The position numbers were made by a program, and so were the translations under genes. Under the pieces are notes generated by a model that worked only from the letters and a program-made list of their open reading frames with translations, searched no databases and was not told the DNA's origin. Shown here one piece after another: positions 4,394 through 59,086 of a stretch of DNA of 64,000 nucleotides; the first letter of the stretch is position 1; each line of letters begins with the position of its first letter. Where the stretch lies: assembly GCA_941918925.1 (NCBI GenBank), contig OW799237.1, forward strand, positions 96,321,015 to 96,385,014, read 5' to 3'. This DNA is from Phyto melanocephala. Lineage: Eukaryota; Arthropoda; Insecta; Diptera; Rhinophoridae.

Positions 4394-5164
4394 CCCTGCA
4401 TGCTTAATGTTAGTCGTTTCGACTAACATTGTTACTTTTTCTCTTCATAACTTTTTTTGCTCTTATTTGATCATTCTCATTTTTAGTGTTGAATGAGTTG
4501 ATTTAGTTACAAAGCTACCGCCGATTATTACTGATGTGTTGTGTGACTCATTTAAATGGTATGTATTGGTTTGCAAAAACTACTTAGTCGTAACGACTAA
4601 CTTTGGTTTTATTGCAATTTTTTTTTAGTAAACAAAATGACTGTTAAGAAAATAACCGACGATAAACGAGTCTCAAAACACGTATATTGATAACACAGCA
4701 CCAAAAAAATAATAATAATAAAATAAAAATTTGTGCATTTTGTACCTACCAAAGACAACGCATGACAAAGGCTGTATGCATAAAATGCAAAAAAAATATA
4801 TGTGGCGAGCACAAAGTTGAACTTTGCGTCTCTTGTGGAAATAATTAAAGTACAATTTTTTTTTAGTTTAAGTATTTAAGACAAAGCCTTAGCTTTATAA
4901 TGGCAAGAAGCCTTTTTTAAGTTTTTGAATTTTTTTAAATAAATTTTATATTTAAAATTTTTAAATCTGATGTACCTTAGACTGATGAAGAACAGTAATT
5001 TATTTCATTATAAATAAAATAGAAATCAAAACAAATGAAAATGTTTTTTGCTTTTATATACCATAAGGTATAGTATTTTAGTTTTTCAGTAACTTTTATG
5101 GATTAGGAACCCTACCCGTTCCACAGAGTTCATATTTCGGGCATGTTAATCGAATCGACTAGAC
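4394..5164 (+). mobile_element. piggyBac remnant 3 (TTAACCC end with GTTAGTCG palindromes)
   Basis: Begins CCCTGCATGC directly after TTAA at 4390-4393, as piggyBac ends do. A palindrome GTTAGTCG-TTT-CGACTAAC lies at 4409-4427 and a near-copy CTTAGTCG-TAA-CGACTAAC at 4583-4601. A degenerate third copy, GTTAATCG-AAT-CGACTAGAC, at 5145-5164 may mark the right end, but no clean right TTAA is visible. Between them is a transposase fragment (4637-4848) that keeps the C-terminal cysteine-rich domain. This arrangement parallels the intact element at 18743-21067. The left boundary is firm; the right boundary is a guess. Confidence 0.6.
4637..4848 (+). pseudogene. piggyBac transposase remnant, C-terminal cysteine-rich domain
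   Basis: The last 38 codons (4732-4848, stop TAA) form a cysteine-rich domain: CAFC at the start, CIKCKKNICGEHK in the middle and CVSC near the end. The same layout ends the intact transposase at 19230-20945 (CYMC, CQICKNNVCNEH, CKEC). A possible N-terminal start lies at 4637, but its frame differs and stops soon, so the core DDD domain has been deleted and the joins are frameshifted. In active family members this domain helps bind the transposon ends; here it is only a fossil. Confidence 0.7.
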
Positions 5165-17514: not shown

Positions 17515-18565
17515 ATGGTGGAAAATCGAAAATTGTTTTATGCAATTAGTTTGATGTTATTGACTGGCTGTCAAATTATAACAATGTTGCCACACAATAT
17601 TGGCAGCAGTGAGAGCAGTAGTATAACAACAAAAACAACTATTAAAAGTAGTAGTAACAATAGTAAAAATATTGAAATTTTATTGGAGAAAGACAGTAGC
17701 AACAACAAAAACAACGACAACAACAACAGCAACAAAAATAACAATGACGATAGTGATTTTTTAATAATAGCGGCGGAAAGAATTCAAACAAAGCACAAAA
17801 TAGTTTCAAGTGAGGATGTATGGGAAAACGAGGAAAATAATTCTAGACCAACAGACAATATTGATGATTTGATTTTTCTCGACAAACGACCAATTAACCA
17901 ACATCTGAAACATCATCATCATCATCATTCTCTTCAACAGCAGCAGGCAAATGAACAAAATAATTTCGAATTCCGTCATGTAACCATGGACAATAGTGAG
18001 GGCAACACCAATAGCAACAGCAATGAAGAAACAGATTCATTAACAGATACAACCTACTCATCAATGATGGTTGTCGTTGAGGATGCCGATGGTGCTGATG
18101 AGGATGTAGCCGATGATGGTATACCGCATGAAATTGAATTACAGCCAGATAGCAACGATGATGAGGTCACTCCTCTTAATGTAACACCCTTAGATTTAAG
18201 TGATTTTCTAGCATTAATACCCGCTGTTAGAGTTAAAACAATTGTTAACCGTTATTACCACAACGATCCGGAAGTTCAGCGTGCCCACGCCTTTATGTCT
18301 AGTCGCGATTTTGCAATACTCAAACAGCAAATAATTGCCATACCGGAAATGTCAGCATTTTTACGTTATTTAAATAATAGTGGTTTAGATTTAGTCAAAT
18401 TTGTCACAGCTTTAACAAGTCTAACCTCATACGAACGTATGAACGTCGACAGCGTCAAAACAATGAATCTAATGACAGATCATACCTTAACAACAGCTGC
18501 AGCAGATGAAGCAACTGCAGCACCAGCCATAAAACAAACAACGACAAATATTGCGGAAGCAAATG
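17515..18565 (+). CDS. Insect-allergen-related (G12-like) secreted protein, exon 1
   Basis: The ATG at 17515 (context CAAAATGG) opens a signal-peptide-like segment: a basic start, then LFYAISLMLLTGCQIITML. The next 200 or so residues are low complexity (Ser/Thr, Asn/Lys, a His run, Asp/Glu). The C-terminal third is folded-domain-like: DFLALIPAVRVKTIVNRYY, then DPEVQRAHAFMSS, then SAFLRYLNNSGLDLVKFV. This is the pattern of the insect-allergen-related repeat (cockroach Bla g 1 and mosquito G12 family), helical secreted midgut or lipid-binding proteins. The exon ends AATG with donor GTAAGT at 18566, phase 1. The long acidic and Asn-rich N-terminal region is unusual for the family. The true function in this fly is unknown. 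Confidence 0.85.
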
Positions 18566-18738
18566 GTAAGTGAAAGTAAAATATAAAATTTAAATATTTT
18601 TTTTGTGAGTAATAAATCATTTAAGTAAAATAAATTTGTAGTTGTTGTTTAGTTTGCTTTAGAAGTATTTATTAGAAAAAAATAAGTAGAGGCCTTTATA
18701 GTTTAATAAAAATTCTTGTAATGTGCTAAGGTTTAGAT

Positions 18739-18742
18739 TTAA
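18739..18742. repeat. piggyBac target duplication TTAA (left)
   Basis: TTAA immediately before the left terminal repeat CCCTAATCTTACCAACAT. Its pair is at 21068-21071. Confidence 0.85.
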
Positions 18743-18759
18743 CCCTAATCTTACCAACA

Positions 18760-18776
18760 TGTGTCTGTGAGACACA
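18760..18776. promoter_or_regulatory. piggyBac subterminal palindrome, left 1
   Basis: TGTGTCT-GTG-AGACACA preceded by CCAACA. A likely transposase or host-factor binding site, by position and symmetry only. Confidence 0.6.
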
Positions 18777-18949
18777 TTTTGATGTTTGATTCAATAAAAC
18801 AACGAAACTTTGTTACATATTGACACCAAATTTTATGACTTTTATTTTACATCTGTTTTGTATAATTTCACAAAACAAAGTTGATAAATATTAAATTCCT
18901 CTATTTTTTATAAGCCAAAATAAAAAAAATGTAACATAAACTACCAACA

Positions 18950-18966
18950 TGTGTCTCAGAGACACA
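18950..18966. promoter_or_regulatory. piggyBac subterminal palindrome, left 2
   Basis: TGTGTCT-CAG-AGACACA preceded by CTACCAACA, 190 bp inside the first copy. The extended flank matches the right-end copy better than the first left copy does. Confidence 0.6.
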
Positions 18967-19229
18967 TACAAAGAATTTAGTAGAATGCGCAAATTTAGAA
19001 CAAAAGCAACTATCTGTCATATATGTTACAGAATTTATATTTGTTTAGCAGCAACTATCTTTCATATATATTTATACAAATTGCATATTTTCATATCACT
19101 TTATTAAATTTGGGGAATTCCCTTTTATTGAAATCAATAATCACCTGATACTGAATGTTGAAAAACAACAAATTAGTTGCGGTTAGATTTTGTAGAGTAT
19201 TGATGTGCAAGTTCATTTTATAAAAAAAT

Positions 19230-20945
19230 ATGCCAAAGCGACTTACAGAAGAGGAAATCCGACTAGCCGCGGAAGAAATTGATGAAGATATGGTTGATGA
19301 TATAGAAGACGAGGATATGTTTTTGCAATCTGATATCGAAGATAGTCAAAATAATGAAAATATTGAAGATGATGCTTCCGAGATGTCTGATACTATTTCG
19401 GATATTGAGGAAGATGCAGGTGAGGAATATGGTGAAATATTTGTTGGTAAGGACGGAACTCAGTGGTATTCTATTCCAAAACCTCAAAGGCGTTTTCCTG
19501 CTCGAAATATAATTCGGTGCGCATTGAACAAAGTTAACTTGCCACCAGGAAAACAAATTGAAGACCCTTTAGAGGCAATCGAGCTATATTTGAATGACGA
19601 AATTTTTGATTCAATTGTAAAATTTACCAATTTGTATGCAGTGACTACAAATCAGAATGCCTGGCGTCCAACAAATGTAACAGAAATAAGAGCCTATGTT
19701 GGACTTTTGATTACAGCGGGGACAAAAAAAGAAGCAAACACAGAGATTGCTGAGTTTTGGAGTTCGCGATATGGTTGCCCAATTTTTCGGGCTACTATGA
19801 GTCGAAATCGTTTTATGGAAATTTCCAAAAATTTGCGGTTTGACGACAAAAGCACTAGAAGCATTCGACAGCAAAAGGATAAACTGGCACCTGTAAGGGA
19901 TTTATTTGAAATTGTCAATAAAAATCTAAAAAAATTTTACACTCCTGGTGACAACCTTACTGTCGATGAGCAGCTTGTTCCGTTTCGTGGAAGGTGTTCT
20001 TTCCGCCAATATATGCCTAGTAAACCAGATAAGTATGGACTAAAAATTTGGTGGGTATGTGACAGCAAAACAGCCTACCCACTCAACGCAATACCTTACT
20101 TAGGCAAAATAAACAACCAGAGGGGTTTTGGTTTGGGCCAAAGAGTTGTGGAGGAGTTAGTTCAACCCTATGAAAACACAGGCCGAAATATAACATGTGA
20201 TAATTATTTTACGAGTTTGGAACTTGCGAATAACTTATTGGCTAAAGGTTTGACAATAACGGGCACTCTAAAGAAAAATAAGCGCTGTGTTCCTTCATCA
20301 TTTTTGCCAAACAGAAAAAGGCAAGTTGAAACAAATTTGTTTGGTTTTACCAATAATAAAACTTTGGTATCTTATGTCCCTAAACCGAATAGAGCAGTTC
20401 TTTTACTCTCTACAATGCACTATGACACCCACTGCGACTCACAAAATAAGAACAAATCGGAGGTAAATTTACATTACAATCGAACTAAAGGAGCAGTTGA
20501 CACTTTGGACCAACTTTCACATAGTTTTACTTGCCGGAGAAAATCAAACAGGTGGCCATTTACGTTCTTTTCCAATTTAATTGATGTTTGTGCAATTGCA
20601 GCATATATTATTTGGAAAAATTTACATCCATCATGGAAAGCAACACAAGCAAAAAAAGCTCGAAAACTCTTTTTACGAGAAGTTGCCGAAGGACTTATTG
20701 CCCCCCAAATACATCAAAGGTCAAGAAATAAATTACAACGTCCTATAGTTCAATGCATGGAAAAAGTTCTTCAAGAAGGAAATACACCAAGTACAACCAC
20801 TTCTACAACAAATAAACGTAAAAGATGCTATATGTGCGATCCAAAAATAAGTCGTATAATAAAGCAATGCTGCCAAATATGTAAAAATAATGTCTGCAAT
20901 GAGCATGCTACAAAAGTTATAAATTGTAAAGAATGTATTCAATAA
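19230..20945 (+). CDS. piggyBac transposase (571 aa, intact)
   Basis: A DDD-type transposase that excises and inserts DNA precisely at TTAA. The N-terminal 75 residues are acidic and probably disordered. The catalytic core shows TVDEQLVPFRGR with Asp246, ITCDNYFTS with Asp324 and GAVDTLDQL with Asp424. The spacings (78 and 100) match the catalytic triad of the founding moth element (78 and 101). The C-terminal 40 residues form a cysteine-rich zinc-binding domain (CYMC, CQICKNNVCNEH, CKEC) that in relatives binds the transposon ends. The length is normal, there is no internal stop, and the ATG at 19230 is the first in frame. AATAAA at 20941-20946 overlaps the stop codon. It has the orientation of the host gene. 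Confidence 0.95.
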   Translation: MPKRLTEEEIRLAAEEIDEDMVDDIEDEDMFLQSDIEDSQNNENIEDDASEMSDTISDIEEDAGEEYGEIFVGKDGTQWYSIPKPQRRFPARNIIRCALNKVNLPPGKQIEDPLEAIELYLNDEIFDSIVKFTNLYAVTTNQNAWRPTNVTEIRAYVGLLITAGTKKEANTEIAEFWSSRYGCPIFRATMSRNRFMEISKNLRFDDKSTRSIRQQKDKLAPVRDLFEIVNKNLKKFYTPGDNLTVDEQLVPFRGRCSFRQYMPSKPDKYGLKIWWVCDSKTAYPLNAIPYLGKINNQRGFGLGQRVVEELVQPYENTGRNITCDNYFTSLELANNLLAKGLTITGTLKKNKRCVPSSFLPNRKRQVETNLFGFTNNKTLVSYVPKPNRAVLLLSTMHYDTHCDSQNKNKSEVNLHYNRTKGAVDTLDQLSHSFTCRRKSNRWPFTFFSNLIDVCAIAAYIIWKNLHPSWKATQAKKARKLFLREVAEGLIAPQIHQRSRNKLQRPIVQCMEKVLQEGNTPSTTTSTTNKRKRCYMCDPKISRIIKQCCQICKNNVCNEHATKVINCKECIQ

Positions 20946-21008
20946 AAAATTACTTAACATAAACTAATTTGTAATTGTCTTATGCTTTTTTCTTTTAATT
21001 TGTATGTA

Positions 21009-21025
21009 TGTGTCTTAAAGACACA
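21009..21025. promoter_or_regulatory. piggyBac subterminal palindrome, right
   Basis: TGTGTCT-TAA-AGACACA followed by TGTTGGTAG, the complement of the left flank CTACCAACA. It lies 64 bp downstream of the transposase stop and 42 bp inside the right end. Confidence 0.6.
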
Positions 21026-21067
21026 TGTTGGTAGGATTTGTAAGTTTTTATGTCGGTATGATGAGGT

Positions 21068-21071
21068 TTAA
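21068..21071. repeat. piggyBac target duplication TTAA (right)
   Basis: TTAA directly after the right terminal repeat, pairing with 18739-18742. Confidence 0.85.
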
Positions 21072-22430
21072 AACACTCTACAATAATATAATAAGTGGAT
21101 AAGAGTAAATGGGTTTCCCGAGACTTTAATTAAACTCTATAAATTACAGAAACGTCCTTACGCTAAAGAAGGTGTTGCCGATTACGAACACTAAAGCCAG
21201 TTTACTTAAAAAAAATACTTCAAGGGATTTTGTTACACACTTTAAGAAAACAAATCTAATGGTTTTATCGAAACTTAAATAAACTTAAACTTGGAAATTA
21301 AAAAAAAAATTATTAAAAACAGCTGTTCTTTTGGTATTTATTTAAATTCAGTTTAAAACTTATTTTTCATTATCGTTCAGCAAGTCTTGAAACTTTAACC
21401 AATAAAACAGCTCCAAAAATGAATGCAATATCATGCAAAATATCTTAAACAATTCATGTAAAAAAACAAATTCAACTCATGAAACATCCGATGCTTTGCA
21501 CCAAATATGCATGAGTTCTGTGTACTTGTCAAAATAAAGTACAATTTATTAAAATATTCATGTAAACACATGATCTTCAATGACACGCTTATGTTAAAAT
21601 CATTAGTGTTTTCACCTAAATTTAATCACTTCGTCACAAGTTTAACCCCTTTATTTTTTTCGTTATAGATTTTCTTGCTGGGGTTCTAGCTGTTCTTTAA
21701 TACTAGTTATGTTCCTGATATTAATAAAAGTTTGATAGAAGAGATTAAAAGTTTTAAAATTTGATTTCAATACACTGATCAAAGAATAGATGTTGAAACA
21801 AATGACCTTTGATATTTCTGGCATTTTATTGATATTTTTCTCTTCGCATGAAATTATTTTCACAGTGGTCTACTGGTTCGAGGCAAATATCTTACGGTTG
21901 CTTCAGATACGAAATCCTGACATTAAAATCCCGACCATATGCTCTATATGTTCAGCTATTTGTTCGTTGATTTGAATAAGAAAACTATATTGTTCTGTTT
22001 ATTTATTCTCTCTATGTGTAATTTCTCTAGATATTATTTAAATAATCTAGAAAAAAAAAATTAAATAAATTTATAAATGAAAATGTTTTCAAATTTGTAA
22101 ACTGGCTACTTTTGCCCCACCCTATATAGAAATGCAATTTACTAAAGACAATGTATGTTTTAATAATCTAGCTTTTATTACGATAGAAACTAATTAAATT
22201 TTTTAAGACTACTTCGCCAAAGATATACCTTATGTAAACATATCTTGACTAAAGTAATTTAAATATATATTAAGGAGCTCTGAAAGTTGTTACAAAATAG
22301 CAATATTTTCTTATCTATAAACAATCTACCAAAATATATATTAAATAATAGGGTGTTAGGAAGAGTACAAAATAATGAGGAAATGCATGTAATTCTTCAC
22401 ATGAAATGTCTTCATCCTTTACTTTAATAT
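21072..22430. other. Intronic AT-rich stretch
   Basis: Part of intron 1. Short open frames only; no domains, terminal repeats or RNA genes seen. Confidence 0.5.
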
Positions 22431-23025
22431 ACTTTTTACACTCACCCTTCACACAGTGAAAAAGGTCCGCGTGTGTGTTGAAATCAACTTTTAGAAGCAC
22501 CACGACATCTCCTAGACCCGGGATCGGATTGTTATTGAAAATCAGAAAAATCGGTACATATAAGATATGAGAAAAAACCACGACCACCTCGTTGTTTTCA
22601 CATCAACAACATACATACAAACGTGTATACTGGTTAGAGTAAACGTGGCATCGAATCCCAGCTAAGCCAAAAAAAAAATTTTTTTATAATTATTATTTAA
22701 TTTTTATTTTATATATTATTTATATTTTTATTATTTATTTTATTTTTTTTTAATTTTTTTTTACTTCTTTTTATTTTTTTTTTAATTTTTTTATATTTTT
22801 TTTAAATTTTTTTATATTTTTTTTTTAATTTTTTTTAATCTTTTATTTTTGAAACACATACGTAAACTCAATTTATAATTTTACAAAGGGATTTTTGTTA
22901 TATGTATGTAGTACGTATTTCATCTGAGATGAATGGTGATAACTACAAACAATTGTTATTGCATGACTACACGTTGTGAAGGGTATATAAGATTCGGCAC
23001 GGCCGAATATAGCACTGTTACTTGT
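22431..23025 (-). repeat. mini-me/DINE-1-like repeat, copy 3 (reverse)
   Basis: Read on the reverse strand it starts ACAAGTAACAGTGCTATATT with the ATTCGGCCGTGCCGAATC hairpin and TATACCCTTCACAACGTG. It passes through the T/A-only tract and a CGAGGTGGTCGTGGTTTTTT block shared with 9995-10020, and ends near the ACCCTTCACACAGTG block at 22444. It closely parallels copy 2 at 9576 but lacks the (GGACAGAC)n array, where only GGGTCTAGGAG-like sequence remains. Confidence 0.7.
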
Positions 23026-23855
23026 TTATTATTAATTATATGGTTAATATACAGTAAAAGCCACCTACATTTTTAAATTTAGTTGAGCCGTTCTTATTTA
23101 GTCTAACTGAATCAAGAACACCATCCCTTTTGCCGTGACCACGGTCGGAAACATATTTTCTTTTGTAGTTCCTATAAGAAACATAAGGCAAAATCAAAGT
23201 TTTTAAAATTATCTATTTTATTTGCAATATGCTCTAGCTTACTCCAGCTGCATCATGAAATTTTATTTCAGTATTCAGCTGTCTCCTCCAAGTACGAGCA
23301 GGCCATCTAATACATCGTTATCCCTGGGTACTTTTGTTTGTTCTCTGTAAAAAATAATGTATTCAATATAATGAAATATTAAACAAAACAGCTTAGAAGC
23401 CGAGTTAATAAGAAAGAACTAATCGATTTTTTAGAGATTCTGAAAAGTAATTTTTCTTTTGATTTTTATGAACTAGATTTCCTTAAAAATATTATATTCC
23501 TACAGTATTGTATTGCTTCGATAGCATATCGCTCTTCATAAGTTAAGTAAAACTGTCCAAAAGGCAACTGGCTAACAACAATTTCAACCTGAAAATTAAA
23601 ATGATTTAGTTATCCAATTTTTGTATAAAGTTTACTTTAGCAGTTTTTCCCTTTAGCCACAGATATATGTAAATTCAAAAACATTAAAAAATATTTTAAA
23701 ATAATAATTATTTTCGTTTATTTTGAGTTTGAAATATATTTCATGTGAAAAACATTAAAATGCATTTCAAAGCCAAAGGTTACAGTTTTGCAAAAAAAAA
23801 ACTCAATAGAAAAATTTTTTATTATTTTATTCCTCAAAAATAATTCCGATTACAG
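23026..23855. other. Rest of intron 1
   Basis: No coding signal. The block near 23640 (GCAGTTTTTCCCTTTAGCCAC) resembles the end of the dispersed repeat at 54700-55075. The polypyrimidine tract and acceptor of exon 2 lie at its end. Confidence 0.45.
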
Positions 23856-24160
23856 TCATAGGGTATGCACAAAAACAAAGCCAAATAATGCCGCAAATAT
23901 CAAATATAAAAATTCAAATTACAACAACATCACCAGCAGCCACTACAGCTGCAATCATCGATGATACAGAAACAACAGCAACTACGACAATAGAACATTT
24001 AAATGGTTTACATGGCTTAGTCGATAGTGTGTTAGACGTATTGCCACAGGATCAAATACTGGCCACGTTCTTTGATAAACTCGAAGCCAGTGAACAATTT
24101 TCAAAACTAGTCGATAATATTGGCAGTCCAGAGTTTGCAAAAATACTAAACAACATGCAG
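23856..24160 (+). CDS. Insect-allergen-related protein, exon 2
   Basis: 305 bp that continue exon 1 in frame (acceptor TTACAG to 23855; donor GTGAGT at 24161, phase 0). After a Thr/Ala-rich spacer the family motif resumes: LNGLHGLVDSVLDVLPQDQI, then LATFFDKLEASEQFSKLV, then GSPEFAKILNNMQ. These match the second half of the insect-allergen-related repeat (LPxDxL, FxxKLxxSxxF, SPEF). The visible protein is 452 residues (350 whole codons in exon 1, 102 here counting the split codon). Relatives normally continue with another helical segment ending in a (D/N)xxGxD motif, so a third exon is expected, but I could not identify it downstream. The open frame continuing into the intron is not coding. 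Confidence 0.82.
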
Positions 24161-25339
24161 GTGAGTGATTTCAATATTACACGTTTCATCTTAATTGTAT
24201 TCCTTTGTCTGACCACCCCAAACCCCAGGCCATATTGTACTGCAAACAAATAACTGGCATTTGAAAAAAACAAAATAAATAAATATAAAAACAAAGTTTT
24301 ATATTTTAAAACTTTTATTTTTATTTTTTTCCCCAATAAAATACCCATACATATATTGCTAAGAAAAATAAAAAATTCACAGAAAAAAAAAACAGAAAAA
24401 TTAAATTTCGTCAGAAAGCAAAAGAAATAAAAGAGTGTAGAAAGTAAACTTTTGTTCAAAGGCAATATAGTAAAATTGCATGCTACGTGCTCCGTTGTAC
24501 AAAAGGCTTTGTATTACAACACTTTTTCCTACAGGAATTACCATTTCATTCCCCTCATTTTCATAAACTACCAGGGGGCTGGGGTGGGGGCGTACTGGAA
24601 AATAATGCAAACTAATAACACTTTCCTATATGAAATCGAATACACTTTTGACGGAAACAAAAATAAAACCTTTTTCTCTTTACAATTGTTAAATTTATAC
24701 TTTGTTTTTGGTTCTATGGAAAATATATGTGTATGAGAAGTATAAAAAAGAAAACATTAAATTATAAACAAAACAGCAGTAAGAGTCCTTTTTTAAGGTA
24801 ATAATTTGTGTTAAAAACGTGATTGAAATTTTTATTGTTGTATTTAAGTTATTTTTCCATTTTAATCTAATGTAATTTTTTTTTTTAGAATTTTTATCAA
24901 TTTTGTAAGTAGCAGTACCGTGAAAATTAATAACAGTGAGTCTGTGTAAAAGTTATAATTAATATTTTTCCCTACATTAAGATCACATATTAGCGGTAAT
25001 CATTAGGAAAATAGTAAAACTAATTGTTGTATTCATAAAGAAATATTTTGAGTTTACTAAAGGCATATTTTAGAGTTCTTAAATTTATATACAGGCTGCA
25101 GTTCATTTCGAATATTCTTTAAATTTACAAAGAATTTTTTCATTGTGATAACAAAAGAAAAATGTGAAAAATTATTTTTTGTTAATACTAGACAAGTTAT
25201 TTACATTACAGTACTATTTGATCGATATTTATTTGCTAGACTTAAGTCACCTTGTTGAGTTAATTGAATTCTGTAACTAACCACAATGAGTAAGAAAGAA
25301 GCTTACCAACAGCAGACCTTTTTTATTTATTCTTAGCCA
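24161..25339. other. Start of intron 2; nothing further recognised
   Basis: AT-rich and A-rich. Open frames at 24452-24736 and on the reverse strand have no domain signal. A weak copy of palindromic MITE family A (ATTCATAAAGAAATATTTTG) lies at about 25033-25080. Confidence 0.45.
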
Positions 25340-31757: not shown

Positions 31758-34388
31758 ATGAGAATTATAAAAGTTATTTATTTAAATGGCTTTCAGCAAA
31801 TGAATTATGCTGGAGGCGTTGCTATATATATGAAAAATAATTTAACTTGCAAAGTTGTATGCACGTCGAATGATAAAAAGGCATTGACTGATGCTCATTC
31901 TGGTTATAGTGACCTCAATGAAGCCAATCTGGTTGAATATATATTCACTGAGTTAACCACAGAGGGAAGACGACTATTAATTGGTTGTGTATACAGGCCT
32001 AATGCGCGTATTGGTTTTGATAATTTTATGAACACGCTGGAAATCATTACAACATCTTATGATAGCGTAATTATTGCCGGAGATTTCAACTCAAATATTT
32101 TAAATGAATCGCGTTTCACCAACAGCATGAAAACATTAGGACTTTTTCCAACAAACACTAGTATGCCTACTCATTTTACTTCTACATGCAGTACATTACT
32201 TGATCTCTTTTTTATCTCTGACGAAACCAAATTATTAATATATGACCAATTATCTGCACCTTGTTTTTCAAATCATGATCTCATCTTTATGATATATGAC
32301 TTCCAAGTACAAACTTCACCGCAAACTATTAGCTTTCGTGATTTTAAAAATATAAATCTTTCAACCCTGCAGGAGGAATTTCTGAGAATTGACTGGAGCC
32401 GCATCTATTTTATGGTTTCTATAGATGAACAGTTAGATTTTCTTGAACAACATCTTACAAGTCTGTTTAATATAATGGTGCCTGTGAGAATTAGGAAAAT
32501 CAGCTCCAAGCAGAAATATTGGTTTACTCAGGAAATAAGTAATCTTATAGTTGAGCGTGACCGTGCGTATAAAAGATGGAAGCGCTATAAAACCACAGAG
32601 CTTCGTGAACTATTTCGTTCAACTCGAAACAAAGTTACGAAAAAGATAAGAGAAACCAAATCTAAGTTTTATGCTGAGAAATTTGCTAACTCTGTCAAAA
32701 CTCAACAAACTTGGAAATATATTCGCGAGATTGGAATTTCTAAAAGCGACAATAATAGTGGCAGGCAAATTACAAATGTCAATGAACTTAATGAAAAATT
32801 CGTAAACTTTGCAATGCAGCCCTCCGACTCAAGCTTTTATGATGACTATCAACCAAGTCATTCTTCGTTCAATCGTTTCTCTTTTACTTGCCTTAGTCAA
32901 GATGAAGTTATTTTAAGTTTTTCGTCTATCAAGTCGAATGCAACTGGAGTTGATGGTATTCATCCTAAGTTTGTTAAATTGTTGCTCCCGTCACTTTTAC
33001 CAATTGTATGTCATATTTTCAATAAAATTATTACTACCAGCCAATTTCCTTCAAGATGGAAACAAGCAAAGGTACTACCAATACCTAAGGCAAATGGCGA
33101 ATTTAGACCAATAGCAATTCTTCCCTATTTTTCAAAGGTCTTTGAGAGGGCCCTGCATAATCAAATGACATCATACCTTACCGAAAATAGATTATTCACC
33201 GAACAACAGTCTGGTTTTCGTGCGAAACACAGCTGTATAACTGCTTTGGCCGATGTTTCTGAGGATTTAAGGGGTGAAATAGATGATGGTCATTTAACTA
33301 TGTTAGTTCTGTTAGACCACTCAAAAGCGTTTGATTCTGTTGATCATAGTATTCTTAAAATGAAACTTGATAAATTTATGAGCTTTTCACCAACTGCCAT
33401 TAAACTAGTATCCTCCTATCTTGAAGATCGCATGCAGTGTGTTGAAAGCAATAATACATTGTCATCATTTCTTCCTATACTAAGAGGGGTTCCGCAGGGA
33501 TCAATTTTAGGCCCGCTATTATTTTCTATATATGCTAATGATCTACCTGTGCAGCTGCTACACTCTAAAATACGCCTATATGCTGATGATGCACAATTAT
33601 ACATAAGTAGCAGGAATGATAGGACAATAGAAGCCTGTGTAGAAAAACTTAATAGTGACTTAGACCGTGTTTTTGTATGGGCTACAGCAAATGGTCTCAG
33701 TTTAAATCCTAGGAAATCAAAGTGCATTATACTACGAAAGAGAACTAGTAAGGTAATAATACAGCCTAATATTTTTATAAATAACCAACCGATTGCCATC
33801 GTTGAAACTGCAAAAAACCTTGGCATAATATTCAATAGTACGCTAACTTGGAGTGATCATGTTATATATATCTGTGGTAAGACATACTCTATGTTAAGAA
33901 CCCTTTTGTCAACTCAACATTGCACACCAGTGAGGATACGACTGCTGCTTGCTAAAACTTATCTAATGCCTATTTTATTGTATGGATGCGAAATTTATTC
34001 CTGCTGTGATGCAGAGTCTACACGCAAATTAAATGTATTATTTAATAATATCGCGAGATATGTGTTCTCGCGTCGTAGATTTGATAGTATATCGATCTAT
34101 GCTAAGAAGCTATATGGTGTTAAATTTGATGACCTTTTGAAAATAAAGACCGTGTTATTCCTCCATAAAATTATTACTTCGAAAATGCCTGGATATTTAT
34201 TTGTAAGGCTAAAGTTTGGCAGATCTAATCGCACTAAGAATCTAATTCCCATCAGATATCGAAGTCTTATATCAGAATGGCAATTTTATGTTTATGCTAT
34301 TCGACTCTGGAACAATTTACCAACAACAATCAGAAATATAAGCAACGCTGCACGTTTTAAAACTTCAATTTTTGAACATTTTGCTTAA
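31758..34388 (+). CDS. Endonuclease-reverse transcriptase ORF2 of LINE (chimeric start)
   Basis: 876 codons, of which the first 14 (31758-31799) come from the flanking repeat; LINE-derived codons begin at about 31800. The endonuclease (EEP) part shows GGVAIYMKNNL, GDFNSNI (about residue 108) and the terminal SNHD (about 171), where most relatives have SDH. The reverse transcriptase follows: ATGVDGIHPKF, LLDHSKAFDSVDHSIL (about 516), GVPQGSILGPLLFSIYAN (about 577) and catalytic YADDAQLY (about 608). It then runs to the usual C-terminal thumb with RLWNNLP. No RNase H. The start of the endonuclease is lost, so the protein cannot be fully active although the frame is intact. Confidence 0.88.
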   Translation: MRIIKVIYLNGFQQMNYAGGVAIYMKNNLTCKVVCTSNDKKALTDAHSGYSDLNEANLVEYIFTELTTEGRRLLIGCVYRPNARIGFDNFMNTLEIITTSYDSVIIAGDFNSNILNESRFTNSMKTLGLFPTNTSMPTHFTSTCSTLLDLFFISDETKLLIYDQLSAPCFSNHDLIFMIYDFQVQTSPQTISFRDFKNINLSTLQEEFLRIDWSRIYFMVSIDEQLDFLEQHLTSLFNIMVPVRIRKISSKQKYWFTQEISNLIVERDRAYKRWKRYKTTELRELFRSTRNKVTKKIRETKSKFYAEKFANSVKTQQTWKYIREIGISKSDNNSGRQITNVNELNEKFVNFAMQPSDSSFYDDYQPSHSSFNRFSFTCLSQDEVILSFSSIKSNATGVDGIHPKFVKLLLPSLLPIVCHIFNKIITTSQFPSRWKQAKVLPIPKANGEFRPIAILPYFSKVFERALHNQMTSYLTENRLFTEQQSGFRAKHSCITALADVSEDLRGEIDDGHLTMLVLLDHSKAFDSVDHSILKMKLDKFMSFSPTAIKLVSSYLEDRMQCVESNNTLSSFLPILRGVPQGSILGPLLFSIYANDLPVQLLHSKIRLYADDAQLYISSRNDRTIEACVEKLNSDLDRVFVWATANGLSLNPRKSKCIILRKRTSKVIIQPNIFINNQPIAIVETAKNLGIIFNSTLTWSDHVIYICGKTYSMLRTLLSTQHCTPVRIRLLLAKTYLMPILLYGCEIYSCCDAESTRKLNVLFNNIARYVFSRRRFDSISIYAKKLYGVKFDDLLKIKTVLFLHKIITSKMPGYLFVRLKFGRSNRTKNLIPIRYRSLISEWQFYVYAIRLWNNLPTTIRNISNAARFKTSIFEHFA

Positions 34389-34750: not shown

Positions 34751-36050
34751 ATTAATTTATTAAAAAATTTAATTTTGTTGGATTTTAATGCATTAAAAAG
34801 GAGTTTAAAAAATTTATTTTTAATAAATTTAAATTAATGCTATTTTTTACTTATCGTTATATAGAAATTGTTTTCTAATAATTTATATATTTAAATACAT
34901 TTATGTTTTATTTTTCATTAGTCCGTAAGCAATAAAATTCTTTAGCCTATAGTATATAAATAAAAAAAATAAATTAGTAATTATATTAACAAATAATGTA
35001 TTGACATTCCCCTCTTTTTGCAGAATTCAATGCCTCTTAAAAATCTAATATTTACACTGCATAATAATGGCATCTATGTCATACGAATTGTCGACTCTTT
35101 AAAATCGTATTTTTTCCTTGGAGGATTTTGAATGACAAATAAACAAACGAGTAAAAAAAAAGACAATAAAATTTACAAAGGATTTTTTGGGATACAGGAA
35201 AAGGAGAAATATAAATTCAAGGGGCACTAAAAAATATTATAAATGTATCATAAAATAACTCAAGTCGATAAAAGGTCAAATGTAAGGCAGTAACTATAAG
35301 CATTAAAATCCACAGATACACATACATACATATGTGTATGCATTCAAAAGTACATATATATATGCGCACTCAACAGAGTATTAGCGTGCACGAATACAAT
35401 AGCAACAGTAATAAAAATAAACACATCGAAAATTTCATTTATATATTATGTATGAATAGTTTATTTATTATTATTTTTTTATAACTTTCAAACAAAAAAA
35501 AATTCAAAACGAATATAAACCCAATAAACAGAGCTGGAATGAAAGAGCAAGAACATTTTTATTAGTATAAGAATAAATAAACATTTTTAGCCATTGCAAA
35601 ATCTTTTATAAGAAATATGTATAAACTTTTTTTAAGAAATTTTTTTTTTTAATTTTAAATAAAATTTTAATTAATATGGTGGTGACTTTTGTTTATTCAC
35701 TATTTTCGATTTTAATTGCAGCATTCCCGTACATTTGCTTTAAAAATGTTCTTCATATTTGAAACCACCTACGCTTTCATCATTAGCACTCTTTAGTCGA
35801 GAGCTAAAGTAAGAGAAAAAAATTGACTGCTGGCAAATCAAGATTACCTGAAGACCACAAACGCTTTTGGAGTATAGCGGAAGGATTAAAGAAATTAAAT
35901 TGAGTTTCTACAACGCATCTGAATTTAAACAAAACTCCTCTTACAGATTAATTTTAGTGTCTAGGTATTTTTTATTTCTCACAAGAGTGTGCTCATGAAT
36001 TTATCTCCGTACTTATCGAGACGAAAGGTAGCCTATTTTTATCATAATTC
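34751..36050. other. Gene-free AT-rich region
   Basis: No coding signal, element ends or RNA genes recognised. Confidence 0.45.
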
Positions 36051-42226: not shown

Positions 42227-42361
42227 TTAACCTATTACCGCCTGCACATAGATCGGCTGGTATGATTTTTATGAAATTTGGATATGTGTGCCTGGAAGCC
42301 CATAGAAGTTGATTAAAAAAAAAAATTTTTTTTACCCGAGCTCCGATCTGAGAAATGGCAT

Positions 42362-42377
42362 GGGTATTTAAATACCC
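42362..42377. promoter_or_regulatory. piggyBac 2 subterminal palindrome (left)
   Basis: GGGTATTTAAATACCC, perfect 16-bp palindrome 131 bp inside the left end. Followed by GACAGGCA, which partly repeats the terminal GGCAGG motif. Confidence 0.65.
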
Positions 42378-42607
42378 GACAGGCATTCGTGTGAAGTATT
42401 TACTTTCACCTTATCATTACATTTTACAAACATTTTTATTGTATAATTACAAGGCACATTGAATCAGGTGTATGCACATAAGAACAAACTTTTGACAATT
42501 ATAAAGAAAAGCACAGCTGATCATCAGTTGTTGGTTTGCAATCACCTAAGTAAATATGCATTGGTAAATTTATAAATAAAGTCTAATACGGAATTTTGGG
42601 ATTCAAA

Positions 42608-43402
42608 ATGATTCGTCGACATAAAATTCTAACTGCTGTCGAGTTGCAAGCTCTTTTTGATAGTTGTTTTGATGAGGACAGTGATGGAGAGGAGAACTCT
42701 ATCCAACACGCAGACACCGTTGATGTCATCATAACGCCACCCGATGACGTCGATAATGTTAGTGACAATGAAGAATTGGACGAAAATGTTCAACTGTTGC
42801 GCGATGAGCCGGAGCTGCCTAATGAGATTGCTGAAAAATTCGAAATCGAATGTGTTTACAATGACACCAACCAGTACATGCCATCAGGTGGTGATAATGA
42901 AACGGTAAGTAATGAAGGCGAAGAAGAAGAAGATGATACACCGGTAGCCTCAGCATCTAGTGGTCGTAAATCAACATTGAAGTCAAAAAAGGCACCGAAG
43001 CGTCCTAGAATCAATGAAGGAGTTAAAGCAAAATGGTCTCGGTCACATAACTATCGATTCGGTAAGACTCCATTCGATGATACGGCCAATTCATACAAAG
43101 CGATGTATGAACAAATTGGTGCCATGAATCCAGTGCAGCTTTGGGAGATGTTTATCGATGAGGAGGTGTTAAATTTGTTGGTTACTTCAACCAACCATTA
43201 CGCTGCGACCAACAATTGTCCATCGTTCATGACATCAACTAGCGAAATGAAAACATTTTTGAGCTTGTTGTATATCACAGGCTACCATACTTTGCCGCAA
43301 ATACATATCTATTGGTCAAATCGAGTATCATTGGGATGTGCACTAATAAAAGAATTTATTTCAAGGGTCAAGTGTTGCACCAGATCAGAAGAAGATTGCT
43401 AA
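42608..43402 (+). CDS. piggyBac transposase N-terminal fragment (264 aa)
   Basis: Starts at the ATG at 42608 in a good context (CAAAATG). Acidic N-terminal segment (FDSCFDEDSDGEENS), a basic patch (KSKKAPKRPR, likely nuclear localisation), then the conserved start of the DDE_Tnp_1_7 domain: PVQLWEMFIDEEVLNLLV, TNHYAATNN, FLSLLYITGYHTLPQ and IYWSNR. The frame then leaves homology after residue 245 or so and ends in an unrelated cysteine-containing tail (VKCCTRSEEDC). The three catalytic aspartates and the genuine C-terminal domain are missing. The open frame up to the deletion suggests recent loss or retained use. Confidence 0.85.
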   Translation: MIRRHKILTAVELQALFDSCFDEDSDGEENSIQHADTVDVIITPPDDVDNVSDNEELDENVQLLRDEPELPNEIAEKFEIECVYNDTNQYMPSGGDNETVSNEGEEEEDDTPVASASSGRKSTLKSKKAPKRPRINEGVKAKWSRSHNYRFGKTPFDDTANSYKAMYEQIGAMNPVQLWEMFIDEEVLNLLVTSTNHYAATNNCPSFMTSTSEMKTFLSLLYITGYHTLPQIHIYWSNRVSLGCALIKEFISRVKCCTRSEEDC

Positions 43403-43532
43403 GGCTAAGTGATTTATTTCATGTTTTTTTAATAAATTTACAAAATATTCAATTTATATATGATTTTTATTCATTTAAAAAAAATTTTTTTTAGTAAAAC
43501 AAAAGTATGAATTTTTAGTACTATGGACTGTC

Positions 43533-43548
43533 GGGTATTTAAATACCC
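43533..43548. promoter_or_regulatory. piggyBac 2 subterminal palindrome (right, inner)
   Basis: GGGTATTTAAATACCC, identical to the copies at 42362 and 43883; 131 bp downstream of the ORF stop. Confidence 0.65.
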
Positions 43549-43882
43549 ATTTCCATTTGACCAGATATGACAGCCAAATGTATTGACATATGCCTACTAT
43601 ATTGTTTTTATTGCATAGTATACAACTTAAGCTATTCGCTAAAAGTGGACGTTTTTAATTTGTCCCATTTTCCAATGTTTGGCAGCACTTTTCCGAAGCA
43701 TTTTCAGACTAAGAAAAATCTTCGATTTTTGTCCGTGAAAAACAAAAGGTAAACTAAATTAAAACAAAATCTGCTAAGCAGTTTAATTTAGTCCAAACTT
43801 TCGTCCTTTTTATAAAACAAAAAGCATAGCGATATTTTTCACCTGGCCCGTGCTACAATTTTTTATATATCAACATTCTCTT

Positions 43883-43898
43883 GGGTATTTAAATACCC
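43883..43898. promoter_or_regulatory. piggyBac 2 subterminal palindrome (right, outer)
   Basis: GGGTATTTAAATACCC, 16 bp inside the right end, followed by ATTAGGCAGG. Confidence 0.65.
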
Positions 43899-43918
43899 AT
43901 TAGGCAGGAATGGGTTAA

Positions 43919-53232: not shown

Positions 53233-54481
53233 AAGGGTGTCCCAACTAGAATGCAATTTTTAAATTTGGCACCATTCGAAGTGTCATTGTTTGACAATTG
53301 AATAATTGTTATTGTTCGCTAGTAGAAGGTACGAGGTTAGTAAAAATGGAGCGCTACACGAATGAACAACGCATTCTCATTGTGAAATTGTTTTACCAAA
53401 ATGCGATCAATTTGGGGCCACAATAATGCTCTAAAAGAGTCAACTGTATAGAGATTAATGGATAAATTTGCAGAAGCTGGATCTGTTAGCGATGTAAAGA
53501 CAACATCGCGCCTTCGACCAGGTCGATCGACCGAAAACGTCGCAGCTGTACGTGATGATGTCGCTCAAACTCCATCCACCTCAAGTCGACACCGAGCTCA
53601 GCAAATTGGTGTATACAAATCCACTATGCAGCGAATTTTGACGAAAGATTTGCATCTTCATGCATACAAACTTCAATTGACTTAGGAACTGAAGCCAGCT
53701 GACTATGGATAACGAACTCCCGTTAACATGAAAATGCTGATTTTGCCAATAAAATCATCTTCAGTGACGTGGCCCATTTTCATCTGGATGGCTTCGTCAA
53801 TAGGCAGAATTGTCGCATTTGGGGTCAGGAAAATCCTCAAGTGATTCACGAGAAGCAAATGCATCCTCAACGTGTAACTGTGTGGTGTGGTTTTTAGGTT
53901 GGAGGAATCATTGGACCTTTTTTTCATGAAAATGAGGCAGGTCAAGCGCAAACAGTCAATGGTGTTCGGTATCGTGAAATGATAACCAGTTTTTTCTTGC
54001 CTAGAATTGAAGAAATTAATGTGGAGGGCATGTGGTTTCAACAAGATTGCGCCACATGTCATACAGCCAGAGAAACAATTCAATTGCTGCATCAGTCATT
54101 TCTCGGTCGTGTTAATTCGTGTTTTGGAGACCAGAATTGGCCACCTAGATCGTGTGATTTAACACCTTTAGATTTTTTTTTTGGGGGTTTTTTGACGTCA
54201 ATGGCTTACGCGAATAAGCCGACGACGACTCAAGTCTTAAAAGAGGAAATTGGACGCTGTATTAATGACATAACGCAGCATTTATGCAAAAAGGTCATTG
54301 AAAATTTCATTAAAAGATCACGTGTGTGCCAGCAAAGCCGCGGCGGTCATCTGCACGATATATTGTTCCATATATAATCTCATTCTGTCTACTTTACGAT
54401 ATAATAAAGTTTCACGATTTTTTTTTAAATTTCTGTATTTTATTTAAAATTTAAAAATTGCGTTCTAGTTGTGACACCCTT
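53233..54481 (+). mobile_element. Mariner-like transposon (DUF4817 type), complete ends
   Basis: 1249 bp flanked by TA (53231-53232 and 54482-54483). Terminal repeats of about 33 bp: AAGGGTGTCCCAACTAGAAT on the left and, inverted, AAGGGTGTCACAACTAGAAC on the right, both continuing GCAATTTTTAAATTT. It contains a damaged transposase gene (53346-54377). The terminal repeats differ at only two of the first 20 positions, so the insertion is not ancient. Confidence 0.92.
53346..54377 (+). pseudogene. DUF4817-type mariner-like transposase, frameshifted
   Basis: Starts MERYTNEQRILIVKLFYQNA (53346), then an internal deletion and frameshift before MDKFAEAGSVSDVKT (53458), RAQQIGVYKSTMQRILTKDL, a stop at 53685, FSDVAHFHLDGFVNRQNC, IWGQENP, MHPQRVTVWCGF then a stop, GMWFQQDCATCHTARE, NWPPRSCDLTPLDFFFGGF and FIKRSRVCQQSRGGH with a stop at 54377. 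The order matches insect Tc1/mariner-like transposases with the DUF4817 helix-turn-helix. The catalytic Asp residues in FSD, QQD and PLDF are visible; the usual acidic residue after FSD (DEAHF) is Val. At least three breaks make it non-functional. Confidence 0.92.
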
Positions 54482-57152: not shown

Positions 57153-57713
57153 ATGGTTTGTGTGATGAAGAAATTGTTGCTTTGTTGCAGAGTGTTTTAG
57201 ATGACTTAGTTTCATCTGAAACTGTAAGCGAAGCAGAAAATGAAATACTGGAGGATGATGATCAAAACGAAATGATACAAATTGGTCAGGCCAACGAAAA
57301 CTAATAACCCATTCAAGCTACTGCATCTGCTGGCCAAATAATAGAAACTGACAAGGTCAATGAGACTATTGAACGTATAAAACAGTTTTATCAAGCTACA
57401 TTGAGAAGTAAAAGTAGGCACTGTTTGACTACTTCAAAGGGTAAAAATACTGGTAGGACCTTGATAACAAGTATCGAACAGTACCTTGGATGCAAATAAG
57501 GCTTAAAAATGCCATTTTGTCAAAATCTTTGCGTGACCGCATTAAAAATTTAATTACTGAAATGATAGTGAAGATCAATCTGTTCCTAAAAAAGGAAGGT
57601 ATTGTGGATTTTGTCCTTCTAAAATTCGATAAATGTTAAAACTGTTATGTGTCAAACGTTAAAAACCCGTATGTGGAGAACATAAAAATCTAGTGTGCAA
57701 TAGTTGTATATAA
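57153..57713 (+). pseudogene. piggyBac remnant 4 (N-terminal and C-terminal domain pieces)
   Basis: ATG at 57153 opens GLCDEEIVALLQSVLDDLV then an acidic stretch (SEAENEILEDDDQNEM), typical of a piggyBac N-terminus; stops follow at about 57303. KFYQAT-like and LTTSKGKNTGRT blocks continue in frame pieces. The 3' end (57603-57713) is a C-terminal cysteine-rich domain: CGFC at its start, then LLCVKR, PVCGEHKNL and CNSC, with two stops inside. The DDD core is deleted. The flanks show no clear TTAA ends; a LINE has inserted 140 bp downstream. Confidence 0.7.
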
Positions 57714-57852: not shown

Positions 57853-59086
57853 GGTTAGGTTAGGTTAGGTTGAAAAAGAGGGGTATAAAAGCCCAAACCC
57901 ATGACAGGTATGCACTTATGCCCAGTTGGCATGTTGTGCGCTCCATATGGAAAACGGAATTCCCAAACAAAAACCATAAACATAATTTTCCATAAAAAAC
58001 GGACTAGTCCAAGAACCCAGTCCCCCCAATGTAACGCCTTATGGATCTCCAGTTCGAGTTTCCCAGGTATTCCAAGTTCGGCATAGTATCCACTGTAAAA
58101 TTTTCGCGCCTAATATGCCCAAACGCAGGACAATGACAGAGGTAGTGTACCAGAGTGTCATCCTCTTCCTCGCAAGCTCTACATGTTGTCTCCTCAGATA
58201 ATCTCATGCGAGCTAGATGAGTTCTCAACTCCGTATGACCTGTTATTACGCCGGTTAATTTCCTAAGTGTAGGTCTACTTAGTCTCAGAATCTCCTTTGA
58301 TTTCCTAAGATTTGGGTCACCCCAGAGTGTTCTTGTCACCTTACCGACATCAGTGCTTTGCCATTTTCTGACATGTTCCTCCATTGCCCAACGTTTAAGT
58401 TCATCCTTAAATCGTTTAAGGGGTTTGGCGTTCTCCAAAGTTATAGTACTCAGAAGAGCTCCCGTTTTGGACAATTTGTCGGCTTTCTCGTTTCCGATCA
58501 GCCCGTGATGGCTTGGTATCCATATTATCTCCAGATGTTCACAATTTGCATATGAGTTTATCACCCTCTTGCATAGCAAAACGTTTCGGGATTCAACTTT
58601 CTCCTTTCTCAATGTCTTAATCACTGATTGGCTATCCGTAAAGATACGAAACGGAGTTTCGCTATTCGTTTCCTTTATCCATTTAATTCCTTCCGTAATC
58701 GCCATGATCTCAGACTGAAAAATAGTGTTGTGATCTGGTAGACGGAAGTATTTGCTTCTATTTCGGCTTATGTCGTATAAGCCCATTCCAGTTTGGTCAC
58801 CAATCTTTGAACCGTCTGTGTAAAGATCGTTTCCGTGGGTGTTTCCCATCCTGATTATCTCATCCCATTCTCCCTCTTCCGGTATAATGCTGATGTAGTT
58901 AATATCCTCATATCTCATAGGGATTTTATCACATGTTAATTCCGTAATATTTCCCATCGGTAAGATATCCGTTATTCTTTGGTATCTGGTCTTATGTTCT
59001 CTTATAATCCACTCATCTATTGCTATTAATCTTGTGGCAGCCAAGGCCGCTTCATATTTTACCTGTATCTCAATAGGCCAAATGGA
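57853..59086 (-). mobile_element. 5'-truncated non-LTR retrotransposon with (AACCT)n tail
   Basis: Lies on the minus strand between 13-bp duplications (57840-57852 and 59087-59099). The 3' tail, read on the minus strand, is CAACCTAACCTAACCTAACC (57853-57872). On the + strand this is TTAGG repeats, identical to the canonical insect telomere repeat that flies lack. Coding sequence runs open from the 5' break at 59086 to 58004. Clean duplications and an open frame indicate a recent event. Confidence 0.9.
58004..59086 (-). pseudogene. LINE ORF2 C-terminal part: RNase H plus CCHC (5'-truncated)
   Basis: The frame is open from the truncation, with AALAATRLIAIDEW as the tail of the reverse transcriptase thumb. 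An RNase HI domain has all expected acidic residues: YTDGSK (Asp77, counting from the codon at 59042), FQSEIMAI (Glu112), IFTDSQS (Asp137) and GNEKADKLSK (Asp189), with HHG just before. A cysteine-histidine cluster ends the protein: CRACEEEDDTLVHYLCHC. This layout is that of I/R1/LOA-like non-LTR elements. There is no ATG of its own, and the reverse transcriptase and endonuclease are missing. Confidence 0.88.

Follow-up and report, generated by a model that had tools for sequence, protein, structure and literature searches.

Does the DNA between two TTAA sites at this locus of Phyto melanocephala hold a structurally complete piggyBac transposon, and could such a transposon still move? A sequence-only reading of the 64,000-nucleotide stretch of DNA analyzed here (the window) had proposed a complete and possibly active copy within a host intron. 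We find the reading frame, both ends, and the flanking TTAA copies all present where that reading had placed them, together with a complete Pfam transposase domain. The locus is very probably a young, full-length, coding-competent piggyBac element whose target was a TTAA within the first intron of a host gene of the Ins_allergen_rp type.

The transposase reading frame extends on the forward strand from an ATG to a TAA (19230..20945) and encodes 571 amino acids. PF13843 (DDE_Tnp_1_7) matches the protein over the complete profile (positions 1-349 of 349) with an E-value of 7.1e-79 and a score of 266.1 bits, against a cut-off of 22.4. When the protein was compared with PDB sequences using phmmer, Trichoplusia ni (T. 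ni) piggyBac (6x67) was matched over residues 8-569 with an E-value of 3.1e-97 and piggyBat (9c0f) with an E-value of 1.6e-32; at E-values of 0.001 or lower, this search returned no distinct sequence besides these two. Residues D246, D324, and D424 align with the catalytic aspartates D268, D346, and D447 of the T. ni transposase (numbering as in the excerpted text of PMC7351741), and in an alignment of 106 sequences, 104, 105, and 104 of the 105 rows besides the window protein have an aspartate at these three positions, respectively. The C-terminal cysteine-rich domain (20826..20936, forward strand; residues 533-569) retains eight conserved cysteine and histidine residues, C533, C536, C548, C551, C556, H559, C566, and C569. 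In the same alignment, each of them is shared by 90 to 96 of the 105 other sequences, and the rows that lack them contain mostly gaps there. The unbroken 571-codon frame, the three aspartates, and the intact C-terminal domain that had been read from the sequence are all borne out by these comparisons.

Among the relatives of the transposase, 118 positions are conserved at a level of at least 85%, and the window protein departs from the conserved residue at five of these (117, 368, 412, 422, and 433). The protein P0001 has the same five departures, and because they are common to both proteins they look like features of the lineage rather than signs of decay. An AlphaFold model of the transposase has a mean pLDDT of 81.6 and is poor at residues 16-64 and 517-527. 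The PDB entry that matches it best is 6x67_C (E-value 3.5e-39), with TM-scores of 0.82 by target and 0.70 by query. By eye, an AATAAA at 20941-20946 overlaps the transposase stop codon. Since there is no further AATAAA or ATTAAA in 20946-21120, the transposase messenger may extend hardly beyond its stop codon.

The element measures 2325 bp from tip to tip in forward orientation (18743..21067) and has a TTAA on either side (18739..18742 and 21068..21071), which is the target duplication of the piggyBac superfamily and agrees with what had been claimed for both flanks. Reading inward, the left end consists of a 13-bp terminal repeat, CCCTAATCTTACC (18743..18755, forward strand), followed by 3 bases and a 19-bp near-palindrome (18759..18777, forward strand; bp 17-35 from the tip), which by analogy with T. 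ni piggyBac (PMC7351741, in excerpt) is presumed to be a binding site for the C-terminal domain. The right end consists of its own 13-bp repeat, ACCTCATCATACC (21055..21067, reverse strand), followed by 28 bases and a 19-bp near-palindrome (21008..21026, reverse strand; bp 42-60 from the right tip). Terminal inverted repeats are thus present but imperfect. The two tips agree at 10 of 13 bp, a match that is near chance if taken alone, and at 14 of 18 when 18 bp are compared. They differ at base 1, as the left tip starts with CCC and the right tip with ACC. The strong match between the ends is subterminal: bp 30-60 of the right end (21008..21038, reverse strand) are identical to bp 5-35 of the left end at 28 of 31 positions. 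The "matched terminal repeats" described earlier therefore exist, and they are well matched in their subterminal part but not at the tips. A 23-nucleotide direct repeat (91%) lies between the left end and the transposase reading frame, at 19005-19027 and 19050-19072. A search of 18000-24500 against Rfam at gathering scores gave no match.

Since the left end is more similar to the inner repeat of the right end than to the right tip, we considered whether the element might end at this inner repeat, just outside 21038. This boundary was rejected, because no TTAA adjoins it and because an inner duplication is the arrangement found in T. ni piggyBac (PMC7351741). For that element, spacers of 3 and 31 bp between terminal repeat and palindrome have been reported (PMC10140906), as have minimal ends of 35 bp on the left (LE35) and 63 bp on the right (RE63; PMC7351741). 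The T. ni tip is given as 14 bp in PMC10140906, and we use the 13 bp that follow from LE35 and RE63; together, these spacers and ends put the T. ni right palindrome at bp 45-63. With spacers of 3 and 28 bp, the window element has the T. ni layout exactly on the left and 3 bp short on the right. Bp 34-63 of the T. ni right end are, moreover, almost identical to bp 7-35 of its left end (PMC7351741), and the 28 of 31 identities noted above parallel this. Judged by the spacing and by this subterminal match, the end layout of the window element is the T. ni plan carried out in another sequence.

The likeness to T. ni piggyBac (IFP2; 6x67/6x68) also includes the TTAA target, the catalytic triad, the eight aligned cysteine and histidine residues of the C-terminal domain, a single reading frame of similar length (571 residues here and 594 in T. 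ni), a left palindrome at bp 17-35, and an asymmetric right end in which an inner segment is duplicated. The two elements differ in that their proteins are only 36% identical in a structural alignment, the palindrome piece quoted for T. ni, TGACGCATG (PMC7351741), is unlike the window palindrome, and the right palindrome of the window element is 3 bp nearer the tip. The window element also has tips that differ at three of 13 bp and an additional palindrome at bp 207-225 of its left end. Furthermore, Y558, R567, and K569, which are described as crucial residues of the T. ni C-terminal domain (PMC7351741), fall, as we read the phmmer alignment, on R532, S541, and I543 of the window protein. The piggyBat element of Myotis lucifugus (9c0f) belongs to the same superfamily and resembles the window element in its catalytic core, in its weakly matched ends, and in having extra palindromes, with three in the left end of piggyBat (PMC11707139). 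Unlike the window transposase, however, which is 20-21% identical to it in a fold alignment, piggyBat is described in the excerpted text of PMC11707139 as having a C-terminal domain without structural relationship to its T. ni counterpart, and a right end without such a palindrome.

The location of the element was determined from the host gene. Using tblastn with seven orthologues (two from Lucilia and one each from Calliphora, Cochliomyia, Musca, Glossina, and Drosophila), we obtained three blocks of a single gene on the forward strand. These are the coding part of exon 1 of an Ins_allergen_rp (G12-like) gene (17515..18565), exon 2 (23856..24160), and the coding part of exon 3 up to the end of the orthologue match (35024..35128). 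GT and AG are seen by eye at all four splice sites, and parts of PF06757 are found in exons 1 and 2 (profile positions 5-93 and 87-152). The element lies within intron 1 (18566-23855) in the orientation of the gene, and the same-strand exons on both flanks confirm the intronic, co-oriented position first proposed. Identity to named orthologues from Lucilia, Calliphora, and Cochliomyia is 61-68%, with 83-95% of the exon-1 query covered, so the gene probably belongs to a calyptrate fly close to the blowflies. Public orthologues carry odd names, "probable serine/threonine-protein kinase drkD" and "phospholipase D C"; the domain that is recognized is Ins_allergen_rp.

We identified 1,301 protein relatives of the transposase at an E-value of 0.001 or lower by scoring the 7,992 candidates that shared most words with it, and the best 120 of the 1,301 are considered here. 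P0001 is 99% identical to the window protein (567 of 571 residues), and no other relative among these 120 exceeds 55% identity; within this set, the element family consists of one near-identical relative and otherwise of distant ones only. P0001 is represented by one member sequence on nine contigs, the longest of 2,639 bases, with the source tag "lgn", and it differs from the window protein at residues 21, 89, 98, and 430. In a tree of 65 rows, the window copy and P0001 sit together on a branch of 0.84 with support of 100/100. Their end branches measure 0.0069 and 0, respectively, and the window copy looks more derived than P0001. A piggyBac-derived protein of Glossina fuscipes (P0066) is 55% identical over 67% of the query, and P0002-P0010 are 48-53% identical to the window protein; all of these share a supported set of 32 rows of the tree (99/97) with the window copy.

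The four residue changes that separate the window protein from P0001 correspond to about 4-6 random substitutions. In a simulation without selection that included substitutions only and no indels, this number of substitutions left 73-79% of reading frames open. Because so many frames stay open without selection, an intact reading frame is weak evidence by itself, and what it shows is a young copy, not one under selection or active today. The occurrence of a protein with 567 of 571 identical residues on nine public contigs is a sign of youth and not of movement. Recent movement of the window copy is something that we infer.

Searches beyond these proteins added one relative. Viral contigs searched by protein and by palindrome pattern yielded no homologous DNA, and a search of viral contigs with the 32-row alignment gave five stretches that matched the pattern, none of which was confirmed. 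In genome contigs, the corresponding search matched the pattern 12 times and confirmed a single relative, L001 (JAMOUE010000120.1), a 3,084-base contig filed in a Deltaproteobacteria metagenome-assembled genome (MAG) that encodes a 41% identical transposase. L001 has a different palindrome of its own in three copies, one upstream and two downstream of the transposase match, and it is probably a eukaryotic contaminant in the MAG.

Given a young and coding-competent copy, the question becomes whether its ends still function. It may be that the transposase works in trans while the mutated right tip excises poorly, and we regard a copy crippled at its end in this way as having somewhat less than an even chance of being the true state of the locus. 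The right tip does begin with ACC where the left begins with CCC, the two differ at three of 13 positions, and excision is impaired by mutations in the two outermost base pairs according to work cited in PMC10140906. However, if divergence since P0001 is near 0.3-1%, the probability of at least three fresh mutations in a 13-bp tip is 7.6e-6 (at 0.3%) to 2.7e-4 (at 1%). Because this is so improbable, the larger part of the difference between the tips probably predates the window copy, with an old family trait as its more likely source; base 1 alone may be new. Departures of this kind also occur elsewhere: for piggyBat, four identical nucleotides are marked at the tips, where 15-bp repeats were originally reported (PMC11707139), and many bee elements start with CAC (PMC10140906), so departures from CCC are natural.

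A copy that is autonomous and currently mobile, excising with its own ends, is a possibility that we hold only tentatively. The intact reading frame, the complete catalytic and C-terminal domains, the two ends, the TTAA copies, and the near-identical sister protein would all be consistent with it. Against it stand the mismatched tips, with 10 of 13 bp in agreement and a difference at base 1, and the consideration that P0001 could be an allele or an orthologue at the same site. Were such a copy to move, homology with T. ni piggyBac suggests that the transposase core would bind the motif near each tip, a dimer of C-terminal domains would bind the 19-bp palindrome, and transposase dimers would synapse the two unequal ends. 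Excision would then proceed through hairpins, with seamless repair of the TTAA and rejoining of the element at another TTAA.

It is very improbable that the host has kept the transposase as a domesticated gene of its own. An unbroken reading frame inside a gene might suggest this, but the transposon ends and the target duplications are still there. In addition, among the best 120 of the 1,301 relatives, no named protein exceeds 55% identity (that of Glossina fuscipes, over 67% of the query), and the sole near-identical protein is P0001, with no conserved orthologue in this set.

We also determined how often ends of this kind would arise by chance. The motif CCAACATGTGTCTNNNAGACACAT, with up to three mismatches, occurs four times in the window where 0.01 occurrences are expected; the fourth is the left palindrome read on the opposite strand. 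The 19-bp palindrome alone has three matches against 0.36 expected. When the left tip was compared with 1,807 oriented sites adjacent to TTAA in the window, only the two ends of the element reached 10 of 13 matches or more, and the next-best site, of which there is one, reached 9 of 13. TTAA plus the left tip, with up to three mismatches, occurs twice in the window where 0.28 occurrences are expected, and at least two are also reached in 6 of 100 dinucleotide shuffles. Alone, the right tip is weaker evidence; what makes it convincing is that it lies 41 bp outside the right palindrome. Because the palindrome counts and the T. ni spacing join the tip match, the element boundary is secure. That a chance TTAA and chance repeats surround a decayed transposase frame, an idea to which the AT-rich window with its many TTAA sites and the shuffle result lend something, has a negligible probability and is refuted by a frame that is not decayed, by a motif and palindrome present at both ends, and by the tip counts taken together.

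The left end of this young piggyBac copy contains a second module, in which a TACCAAC motif again precedes the palindrome, here the extra one (18949..18967, forward strand) in the same tip-inward orientation (bp 200-225). The element would thereby have three presumed dimer sites. An engineered third C-terminal-domain site on the T. ni left end (LEtandem) approximately doubled integration (PMC7351741), and by analogy evolution might have given this family a three-site transpososome with naturally raised activity, able to cope with a mismatched right tip. We consider this unlikely. The module lies approximately 170 bp inside the first one, and extra palindromes also occur in piggyBat (PMC11707139), in a second remnant in the window, and in L001, so the third palindrome need not be special.

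This second, different piggyBac remnant (42231-43914) has tentative ends, with TTAA at 42227 and 43915 and tips alike at 10 of 16 positions, and it contains three copies of a palindrome with the core GGTATTTAAATACC (42363, 43534, and 43884). Its reading frame (42596-43402) matches only positions 1-79 of 349 of PF13843, and it therefore lacks the catalytic core. Two relics on the forward strand (4657-4845 and 57540-57710) resemble the C-terminal cysteine-rich domains of other piggyBac transposases, with 35-49% identity to piggyBac relatives and best E-values of 3e-6 and 8e-5. The window may thus hold traces of four piggyBac insertions. Other mobile elements are also seen. An 876-residue reading frame with endonuclease and reverse transcriptase domains marks a non-LTR retrotransposon in intron 2 of the host gene (31758-34388, forward strand), and a 346-residue frame with RNase H (58004-59044, reverse strand) is probably part of a retroelement. 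A 132-residue frame (53979-54377, forward strand) resembles by eye what we take to be the end of a mariner/Tc1-like transposase; a Pfam search of it at an E-value of 0.01 gave no match.

Intact piggyBac copies had been called uncommon at the outset. This fits bees, in which 20 of 44 piggyBac-bearing species have intact copies (PMC10140906), but not beetles, in which all 62 piggyBac-bearing species of 136 examined have them (PMC12732532). The intact beetle copies number 534 out of 645 in the text of that report, as excerpted, and its Table 1 gives 654 copies. Our literature search found no comparable count of intact copies for flies, and among the matches listed for searches by fly family or genus there was no "piggyBac-like", which is not proof of absence in print. 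Judging from titles and the starts of abstracts, the papers listed for piggyBac, Calliphoridae, and transposase mainly concern transgenesis and gene drives, and T. ni piggyBac has already been used for transformation in this fly group.

As a genome finding, an intact, young piggyBac in this fly is ordinary but useful. It adds a candidate piggyBac vector from a branch that stands isolated within the family, and its natural arrangement of three palindromes offers a place to try the published idea of an extra dimer site.
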